Shown here: positions 18,334 to 21,412 of the stretch, in pieces
How the letters are laid out: every line of letters starts with the position of its first letter
How positions within the stretch are numbered: the stretch's first letter is position 1
Source: Thiomicrorhabdus sp.
GTDB lineage: Bacteria; Pseudomonadota; Gammaproteobacteria; Thiomicrospirales; Thiomicrospiraceae
Reading direction: 5' to 3'
DNA: 37,082 bases
NCBI GenBank assembly: GCA_015488565.1
Contig: WFNQ01000231.1
Span: 1 to 37,082 of the forward strand
Program-made: the position numbers and the translations under genes
Notes under the pieces: generated by a model
Seen by the model: the letters and a program-made list of their open reading frames with translations, nothing else
Database searches by the model: none
What the model was told of the DNA's origin: nothing

Positions 18334-19251
18334 ATGACACCAGAAACCACCAATAACGACACTTACCCCTTTAACAAACTCCGTAAAAAAATACGCGGAT
18401 GCGTCGGCAAAGCGGTCGCCGATTACAATATGATTGAAGAAGGTGATGTCATCATGGCTTGTGCCAGTGGCGGAAAAGACTCCCATGTGATGATTGACAT
18501 GTTGCTTCACCTACAAAAAACCGCTCCTATTACCTTTAAAGTCGTAGTGGTCAATCTTGACCAAAAACAGCCCGATTTTCCCGCTCATATTTTGCCCGAC
18601 TATTTTGAAGCCCTTGGTGTGCCTTACTACATCATCGACAAAGACACCTTTAGCGTAGTGCAAGCCAAAATACCTGAGGGCAAAACCACCTGTGGACTCT
18701 GCTCTCGCCTAAGAAGAGGGACGTTATACGCCTTTGCTGAAAAAATTGGTGCCACTAAAATTGCGTTAGGCCATCACATGGATGATATTGTTGAAACGCT
18801 TTTTTTAAGCCTATTTTTTAATGGCAAACTAAAAGCCATGCCACCCAAACTACTAAGCGATGATCAGCGTAACATTGTCATCCGACCACTTTCTTACTGC
18901 CGAGAGAAGGATATTTTGCAGTACGCGAATCTCAAAGAATACCCCATTATTCCCTGTAATCTCTGTGGCTCTCAAGAAAACCTACAACGGCAAAATATCA
19001 AAGCGATGCTCAACGAGTGGGACACCAACACCCCTGGCCGAGTTGAAAATATATTTAACGGACTGAAAGAAATTGCCCCCAGCCAATTGTGTGACGCCAA
19101 TCTCTTTAACTTTACCGACTTAGCCATAGATCGAACCAGTGAGGCCAAGCCCTACGCATTTGAAGCGGCTGAAATTTCTTCCACCAATCTCAATCAAGCG
19201 GTCGAAATTACCTTTGACCCCAACCCCTTTGTAAAAAACGATGTCGAATAA
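18334..19251 (+). CDS. ttcA: tRNA 2-thiocytidine(32) synthetase TtcA
   Basis: PP-loop '[20 protein letters not shown]', '[15 protein letters not shown]', '[14 protein letters not shown]', '[16 protein letters not shown]'. Confidence 0.96.
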
Positions 19252-20170
19252 AAGCGTAAAAAAACACAAAATAAAAGAGCAGGTTTGGGCTGGACGTCTG
19301 CTAAAAAGTCTAATTATTCTCTTTAGCTGGATGCCCTATCGTCTTACGCAATGGGTGGGAGCGGGTATCGGTCGCCTACTCTTTTGGTTACCCAATAGCA
19401 ATAAACGCATTGTGCAAGCCAATCTAGCGGCTGTTTACCCAAATTTATCCCCCCCTGAACAACAACAAAAAGTAAAAAAAACACTCATCGAACTGGGAAA
19501 AGTCACCGCAGAACTAGGCGCCGCATGGTGCTGGCCTTATCAACGCCTTACCCCACTGTTAAAAGAAGTAAAAGGACAAGCACTGCTAGACAAAGCCAAT
19601 ACACAAAACAAAGGCATCATTTTTTTAGCCCCCCATATGGGAAATTGGGAACTGATTGGCCCCATTGTCTCGGCACAACACACCGCCACATTTTTATACC
19701 GCCCACCCAATGTACCTTCGGTAGAATCCTTTATGGTTCATGCTCGCGCACGATTTGGAGCCACCCTCGCTCCCACCAATATACGCGGGGTTCGTATCCT
19801 TATTAAAGCCCTTAAAAACCAAGAAGCCACCGTCATTTTACCCGATCAAGATCCCGGCGAATCAGGCGGTGTTTACGCCCCCTTTTATGGTCGTCCAGCA
19901 CGAACCATGACCCTTGTTAGCAAACTCATTCAAAAAACCGACTGCATCGCGCTATTTATCGTGCTTGAACGCCTACCCAATGCTCAAGGATTTTGCCTAC
20001 ACTACCTTCCTGCTAATCCCAAAATAGCCTCTACCAATGAACAAGAAGCCACCACCGCTTTAAATCAAGGAATTGAACAGTGCATTCAAATTGCACCCGA
20101 ACAATACCTGTGGGGCTATAAACGCTATCGTAAACCCCCTAAAAGCATGATTGATATTTATAAGTCTTAA
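19241..20170 (+). CDS. Lipid A biosynthesis-type (LpxL/HtrB-like) lysophospholipid acyltransferase
   Basis: '[18 protein letters not shown]' (HxxxxE type), '[19 protein letters not shown]'; overlaps the ttcA end. Confidence 0.88.
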
Positions 20171-20180
20171 ATTTTAAACA

Positions 20181-20215
20181 AAAAAAAGCACCATATTCAT
20201 CACGAATACGGTGCT
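20181..20215 (-). terminator. Rho-independent terminator on the minus strand
   Basis: Minus strand: AGCACCGTATTC-gtgat-GAATATGGTGCTTTTTTTT. Confidence 0.8.
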
Positions 20216-20306
20216 AATCAACTTAGGGGTAATAAACTTTAAAACAACTTACAAAAGACTTTTGGGGAAAGTCTAACTTTAGATAAATAGGGGATTTATT
20301 TAAGTT
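20181..20306 (-). ncRNA. Candidate intergenic small RNA with C-rich loops (hypothesis)
   Basis: On the minus strand: TTGACC-17 nt-TAAACT promoter-like pair (20336-20341 / 20313-20318), about 126 nt, then hairpin AGCACC(g)..GGTGCT followed by TTTTTTT. Three CCCC motifs lie between; no ORF of length. Confidence 0.45.
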
Positions 20307-20488
20307 GGTTCTAGTTTACGATGCTAAGCCGTATGGGTCAATTACCAAAGATTGAAGAAACCTTAAGACACAATTAAGATGTATTTTATTTGCATTTGCC
20401 TGTTTAACAATTCAACAAACCCCCTACAAATTCAAGTGGCGTATTAATCCTTATTCGCTTAATCCCAACATATTTCAGTCGTAATCGC

Positions 20489-21412
20489 CTACTTTTTAAA
20501 CATCAGCAACGCAACACCGCTAATAACCAGCGTCATACCAATGGCATGCCAATAAGTAAAAGCTTCATTAAGTACATAAATGGCCAGCCCCATGGTAACA
20601 ATGGGGCCTAAAATACCAACAATACCCGTTTGTGCGGGGCCAATTCTCGCAATAGCCTCACTAATCATAAAGCTGGGAATGACGGTACTGAAAATGGCTA
20701 ACAGCACCAACCATAACCACGCTAAAGGGGTAATGTGTAAGGTGCTAAAGTCTCCAATGATGGCAAAGTGCATTAACACAAAAATGCTGGAAATCGCCAT
20801 GGCAAGACTGGTAAACCATAGGCTTCCAACTTCATGAATCACTTTTTTGCCGAATAACACATAAAATGAAAAACTCAGAGCCGCTAAAAAAACGAAGAGC
20901 GTCCCTAAAAAAATCGGCTCTCCTGACACGCTCAATTCTTGGAAAAAAACCAGCCACAGTCCGCCATAAGAAATGATTAAGGCTAAAATAATTTTACGCG
21001 TTAATGGGGTTTTAAAAAACAGTGCGCCCAGTATCGCGACCAGAAAAGGGTAGGTAAACAAAGTAAGACGCTCTAGGGAAGCGCTGATCATTTCCAATCC
21101 TTTTAAATCCAGCCATGAGGAGAGGTAGTAACCAATAAAGCCTAAAAAGGTAATGTTAAGCAAACGATTTGATAAGATAGCCGGCCGTGTTTTATAACGC
21201 ATTAACCATGCTAAAATCACCAAATAAATCGGCAATGCAAGCGCCATCCGTAGCATGAGTACACTATCGGAATTGAGTCCTTCAATATACGCCAGTTTAA
21301 TAAAAATAGACTTAAGAGAAAAAAGAGCCGTACCAACAATAGCCAGTATAAACCCGATCATGGCCGGACTTAATTTGAGCGATCTCACTAAGGTTTTCGA
21401 CCCACATACCAA
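20489..21412 (-). CDS. EamA/DMT-family transporter; start may be 21361
   Basis: About ten hydrophobic helices; 'MIGFILAIVGTALFSLKSIFIKLAY', 'LGPIVTMGLAIYVLNEAFTYWHAIGMTLVISGV'. Confidence 0.88.
   Translation of the reverse strand: MVCGSKTLVRSLKLSPAMIGFILAIVGTALFSLKSIFIKLAYIEGLNSDSVLMLRMALALPIYLVILAWLMRYKTRPAILSNRLLNITFLGFIGYYLSSWLDLKGLEMISASLERLTLFTYPFLVAILGALFFKTPLTRKIILALIISYGGLWLVFFQELSVSGEPIFLGTLFVFLAALSFSFYVLFGKKVIHEVGSLWFTSLAMAISSIFVLMHFAIIGDFSTLHITPLAWLWLVLLAIFSTVIPSFMISEAIARIGPAQTGIVGILGPIVTMGLAIYVLNEAFTYWHAIGMTLVISGVALLMFKK

Follow-up and report, generated by a model that had tools for sequence, protein, structure and literature searches.

A candidate small RNA family with a conserved C-rich seed in Thiomicrorhabdus and related genera

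Results

A putative small RNA gene between the acyltransferase and EamA genes

The window (the whole stretch of DNA analysed here, 37,082 nt) is contig C231 of a Thiomicrorhabdus MAG that is 80% complete. Between the genes for an EamA transporter and a lipid-A-type acyltransferase it carries a putative small RNA (sRNA) gene (Table 1). A sequence-only reading of the window had proposed a minus-strand promoter, TTGACC-N17-TAAACT, followed by about 126 nt that end in a hairpin and U-tract, and the sequence from 20341 to 20181 bears this out.

Table 1. Features of the sRNA locus in the window
Feature	Position	Strand	Support
EamA transporter gene	20489-21412	minus	
Lipid-A-type acyltransferase gene, convergent with the small RNA	19241-20170	plus	
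Three tandem 11-bp direct repeats, CTTAATTGTGT CTTAAGGTTTC TTCAATCTTTG	20346-20378	minus	Kept in 30 of 32 genomes of the genus
-35 element, TTGACC	20336-20341	minus	TTGAyC/TTGCtc kept in position across the family
-10 element, TAAACT, 17-nt spacer	20313-20318	minus	T, A, A, C and T invariant in 27 aligned promoters
Small RNA gene, ~126 nt	20181-20306	minus	Covariance models R1/R3 and helix covariation
Stem-loop 1, AACUU...AAGUU with inner hairpin and CCCCU loop	20275-20306	minus	96% of cells paired in nine close relatives
Stem-loop 2, AGACUUU-CCCC-AAAAGUCU	20256-20274	minus	Sequence; C-rich loop kept in close relatives
Candidate unpaired seed UUACCCCUAAG (anti-Shine-Dalgarno), matching the family-wide UGCUCCUCAG	20222-20232	minus	Most conserved RNA segment of the family
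Intrinsic terminator hairpin and U-tract	20181-20215	minus	Compensatory changes; pairing in alignments

The terminator hairpin of the window copy has 12 bp, and its U-tract stops near 20181. The RNA contains no open reading frame, its only ATG triplets sitting in the terminator hairpin, and its folding energy is -29.6 kcal/mol (z = -5.6), a stability reached by none of 200 shuffled sequences. The features by which an sRNA gene is recognized, namely a promoter of its own, an intrinsic terminator, the lack of a reading frame and a conserved structure, are all present. GGA is missing from the RNA, which is thus not CsrB-like on the minus strand.

The three CCCC motifs noted in the earlier reading lie at 20293-20290, 20267-20264 and 20229-20226 on the minus strand. 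Measured against the window's own CCCC density, three in 126 nt have a probability of about 0.002, and the minus strand of the window holds no second cluster as dense. The first motif had been assigned to a hairpin loop; in close relatives hairpin 1 with its CCCC loop is often the MFE structure, whereas in the MFE structure of the window copy alone this motif takes part in long-range pairing rather than in a hairpin of its own. The third, described as lying in a probably open stretch, falls within the unpaired seed.

Conservation and covariation

When a 310-nt query was run with BLAST against relatives, the alignments began at or near the promoter region and stopped at or before the terminator region. 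Identity at orthologous loci is 65-86% in the promoter, 67-83% in the RNA and 71-78% in the 3' part of the acyltransferase gene, as against 38-49% in the 100 nt immediately upstream of the repeats (shuffled DNA, 46%). That promoter and RNA are kept next to a spacer no more similar than random sequence is decisive support for a real gene. The sequence-only reading had stated that it would fall if loops and promoter were not conserved while the flanking genes were; promoter and loops proved to be kept and the spacer not. Its three CCCC loops survive in relatives as C-rich loops, but the literal set of three CCCC is peculiar to the window's paralog.

A first covariance model, built from nine sequences, finds the RNA in 26 of the 32 Thiomicrorhabdus genomes, mostly as one strong full-length match each. 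A model of the promoter region (78 nt) matches 30 of the 32, and the next best matches have E ~0.004. The two genomes without a promoter match (G001 and G009) are incomplete MAGs, and two of the 30 promoter-positive genomes look decayed, G002 having lost the seed and G018 being rearranged. With a second covariance model the RNA is found in three further genera, one of them g18, and the sequence upstream of F1 (a protein gene described below) adds seven g18 members and the genera g20 and g21, which the model had missed. As read from the sequence upstream of F1, the RNA is absent there in G068, G076 and genus g17.

The helices covary. Among the nine relatives, 8 pairs have changed on both sides, compared with 3.0 in shuffles (0 of 500 reaching 8); the 17-sequence alignment, which overlaps partly with the first, has 16 such pairs compared with 10.0 (0 of 500 reaching 16). 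Within the terminator, six pairs have compensatory changes among the nine relatives, and 100% of the cells are paired in the 17-sequence alignment. Judged by this comparative evidence, including its own promoter, terminator and C-rich loops, the RNA appears to be what the sequence-only reading took it for, an independent and real small RNA gene, which occurs across the sulfur oxidisers of the genus Thiomicrorhabdus and in related genera.

Gene context and duplication

F1 (a 150-aa gene) follows the sRNA in most genomes; then come trxC, which encodes thioredoxin 2, and a small membrane-protein-like gene. In almost all genomes with this ancestral arrangement, the sRNA shares its strand with F1-trxC and is separated from these genes by roughly 25-100 nt, and the relatives in other genera also precede F1-trxC, with CUCCUCA before the terminator. 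F1 (~150 aa; ...RSWDPLF...CHDxTLHGFV...) has no match in Pfam, NCBIfam or PDB. Throughout the bacterial family, the genes of the F1 protein family (L085, L168, L096 and others) keep their synteny with trxC.

F1 no longer stands at trxC in the window's subclade, and the trxC-linked copy of the sRNA is in most cases found between a cation-efflux gene and trxC. A second copy is located between the EamA and acyltransferase genes in the window and in G016, G022 and G045; G011, which lacks EamA there, has it at the corresponding position. The tree joins both copy types in one group, with support of 100/100 for the subclade and 99/99 for the monophyly of the trxC-linked copies, and thereby supports the duplication; the window copy is the subclade duplicate and the trxC-linked type the ancestral one. 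No trxC-linked copy was found in the window genome itself, a MAG that is 80% complete. G043 has three model matches: C50 is of the trxC-linked type, judged by the downstream sequence, C29 has surroundings that resemble those of neither known copy, and C106 scores weakly (E 0.004).

Position relative to neighbouring genes bears on two alternatives. The window copy follows EamA and shares its strand, as would a mere 3' UTR or terminator region of that gene, or a non-functional remnant; we consider this very improbable, because the RNA has a conserved promoter and repeats of its own, the spacer between EamA and that promoter is unconserved, family members adjoin other genes and the helices covary. 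The earlier reading had likewise doubted that this was just the EamA 3' UTR, and in fact most members are not beside EamA, while G011 keeps the RNA in its absence. The second alternative is that the RNA is a terminator-bearing 5' leader (attenuator or riboswitch) of F1 and trxC, with the window copy as a stranded duplicate, as the close, same-strand placement of the ancestral RNA before F1-trxC in nearly every genome would suggest. An attenuator or riboswitch would have a co-directional gene downstream, yet the window copy ends against the convergent acyltransferase gene and so cannot serve as a leader, although its promoter, box, loops and terminator are kept in several species. Moreover, the second copy of G043 sits in another context, and the most conserved element of the RNA is a single-stranded anti-Shine-Dalgarno motif and not a ligand pocket or alternative antiterminator stem. 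We regard a leader as unlikely.

Promoter, upstream repeats and regulator

The sequence-only reading overlooked the three 11-bp repeats, which have the consensus YTYAA-N6 and span about -72 to -40, just upstream of the -35 element. Tandem 11-bp direct repeats are the layout typical of OmpR/PhoB-family response regulators, and we predict that those at the sRNA promoter are probably the binding site of such a regulator.

PhoB itself is unlikely and was rejected: the pst/pstS promoters of the same genus have canonical Pho boxes (TGTCATA type), unlike the sRNA repeats, and no Pho box of the form TGTCATA-N4-TGTCA was found at the sRNA promoter. A PmrA/QseB-type regulator (L072, a PmrA/PhoP-like response regulator) had been suggested by YTTAAK-like repeats. 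It was dropped because the complete genome G002 keeps the repeats, with PhoB and an L073-type regulator as its only OmpR-type proteins.

By elimination, the L073-type regulator becomes the candidate for the sRNA promoter, since the only other OmpR-type protein of G002 is PhoB and since L073-type proteins occur in 32 of 32 Thiomicrorhabdus genomes (74-90% identical to the protein of the window genome). L073 (1009-1731) resembles the marine-sortase-system regulator TIGR03787, with 187 bits against a cut-off of 335.7. A scan of response-regulator loci with a PWM of the box gave no convincing autoregulatory site. The regulator could possibly belong to a class other than the OmpR type.

The seed and ccoO

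The most conserved element of the family is an unpaired GCUCCUCAG before the terminator. Across the genus, UGCUCCUCAG is near-invariant and unpaired directly ahead of the terminator, and some members in other genera carry CUCCUCAG again in a hairpin loop. This unpaired C-rich stretch complements the Shine-Dalgarno sequence and is a candidate anti-Shine-Dalgarno seed.

Eight Thiomicrorhabdus genomes were searched for TGAGGAGC near ATG. A single site complementary to the seed, TTGAGGAGCACAAACTCATG, recurs in each of the eight; wherever it was read it proved to be the ccoO start (cbb3 oxidase subunit II), the gene being identified by eye from its protein sequence. We examined the ccoO start regions L181, L187, L189, L191, L199 and L203-L227. 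By inspection, this region can fold into a hairpin whose loop holds the Shine-Dalgarno sequence. Duplexes between the seed region and the ccoO leader of the same genome mostly have energies of -13 to -24 kcal/mol (-8.8 in G002), and ccoO outscores 43 of 43 background leaders in G014, 25 of 25 in G019 and 20 of 21 in G004.

Where the seed reads GCUCC, the leader base opposite its G is C in 19 of 19 genomes compared. Six genomes that lack the sRNA or the seed (G002, G068, G076, G047, G048 and G050), representing about three independent lineages, have a base other than C there. The leader C is also retained in genomes with a ACUCCUCAG seed (an A variant; G018, G055, G070 and G071) and in G075, a complete genome in which no sRNA was found. 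In G058, ACUCCUCAAA faces TTTGAGGAGT, so that seed and leader differ together; this covariation is weak, because the seed of G056 forms a pairing with the G058 leader that is no weaker than the one formed by the seed of G058 itself. The sRNA of G059 carries ACUCCUCAAAA, and ccoO was not found in G010 (97% complete), which has the sRNA.

A ccoO RBS hairpin with the AUG at the stem occurs through almost the whole family, genomes without the sRNA included, and is missing in g17. The idea that this hairpin is specific to the sRNA was dropped, and its conservation is explained by the sRNA only in part, since it also occurs without it. In the sequences compared, only the letters of the ccoO loop appear to track the sRNA, and not in every genome. 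On balance, we slightly favour ccoO as a target of the ancestral-type sRNA.

Identical motifs repeated in loops and an unpaired stretch also recall titrating RNAs, so that the RNA might instead bind protein or act as a sponge, titrating a factor through its C-rich motifs with no mRNA pairing. Its complementarity to the ccoO leader, and the partly correlated change between the two, make this quite unlikely in our judgement.

A different seed in the window copy

In the window copy the seed is CCCCUAAG, in place of CUCCUCAG/GCUCCUCAG, and inspection showed no match to ccoO comparable with that of the ancestral seed. The loops and seed of this copy share CCCCUA and CCCCAA, which would fit AGGGG-type ribosome-binding sites. 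With the seed changed to CCCCUAAG, the window copy probably serves other mRNAs with ribosome-binding sites of this type.

In a screen of sites near ATG, TTAGGGG was not clearly more frequent than a reversed-pattern control. The pairing with G-rich ribosome-binding regions proposed in the earlier reading finds a counterpart in the ancestral seed and ccoO, but not in this screen for the window seed. Among 20 screen stretches that were read, three sites open long frames, putatively those of cytochrome c peroxidase-like, sensor-kinase-like and nucleotidyltransferase-like genes, and another lies in the apparent interior of a nuoL-like gene. The cytochrome c peroxidase-like gene L280 (G000:C36) has an AGGGG RBS, TTAGGGGTTATTAATG, with ~8 nt complementary to the window seed, and is a weak lead to a target of the window copy.

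Discussion

We think it likely that the locus encodes a trans-acting sRNA of a new family, which is activated by a response regulator and blocks Shine-Dalgarno sequences with its seed, the ancestral copy acting on ccoO and the window copy having switched its seed. The anatomy of the gene, its conservation, covariation and duplication and the complementarity to ccoO are observed; that the gene is transcribed, that a response regulator activates it, that the RNA represses and which mRNAs it targets are inferred. In this scenario, an OmpR-family response regulator would bind the three 11-bp repeats and activate transcription of an RNA that would stop at the intrinsic terminator. Base pairing with G-rich Shine-Dalgarno regions of mRNAs, mainly by the unpaired seed but also by the C-rich loops, would then prevent translation from starting. 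For the ancestral copy, upstream of F1 and trxC, the most probable target would be ccoO, reached via GCUCCUCAG, and the subclade duplicate in the window, its seed now CCCCUAAG, would probably act on other mRNAs, with AGGGG-type ribosome-binding sites.

A more specific proposal is that the response-regulator-dependent sRNA controls the cbb3 oxidase through the loop of the ccoO RBS hairpin, and that the duplicate, in switching from GCUCCUCAG to CCCCUAAG, acquired a new regulon. We offer this tentatively, as an idea that is possible but rather doubtful.

No family in Rfam 15 reaches its gathering threshold with this RNA; the only matches are sub-threshold ones to VrrA (RF01456) and the Betaproteobacteria toxic sRNA (RF02278), with 23.3 and 23.9 bits and gathering scores of 50. 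A literature search found nothing that treats an sRNA in Thiomicrorhabdus. On both grounds we regard the RNA as a new family of a known kind of sRNA, previously undescribed and absent from Rfam.

With its defined promoter element, a seed that hardly varies, a candidate respiratory target that can be tested and a natural duplicate whose seed has switched, this family-wide sRNA may be of use in two ways. It would provide a handle on the post-transcriptional control of respiration in sulfur-oxidising autotrophs, and its duplicate a handle on how duplicated sRNAs change their targets.

By analogy, and with no claim of homology, the sRNA may work like RoxS/RsaE, sX13 or LhrC. RoxS/RsaE of the Firmicutes is under the OmpR-family regulator ResD/SrrA. 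It is, like the RNA described here, a C-rich sRNA tied to redox genes (PMC4409812), but it differs in seed and lineage, and in Thiomicrorhabdus it is the complementarity to ccoO that suggests the respiratory link. The sX13 RNA of Xanthomonas is about 115 nt long and has CCCC loops, and repression by it needs G-rich motifs near start codons (PMC3771888). The Thiomicrorhabdus RNA is similar in size and also has CCCC loops, but sX13 has three stable stem-loops and acts via its loops (PMC3771888), whereas here a candidate unpaired seed precedes the terminator. LhrC1-5 of Listeria monocytogenes are multicopy, LisR-dependent sRNAs with three C-rich motifs, in loops and an unpaired stretch, that pair with the Shine-Dalgarno sequence (PMC4132741). 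Compared by its published description, LhrC differs in phylum, seed and structure, and also uses its terminator loop (PMC4132741). The likeness lies in the several copies, the predicted response-regulator promoter and, as in LhrC, the repeated C-rich anti-Shine-Dalgarno motifs in loops and an unpaired stretch (PMC4132741).
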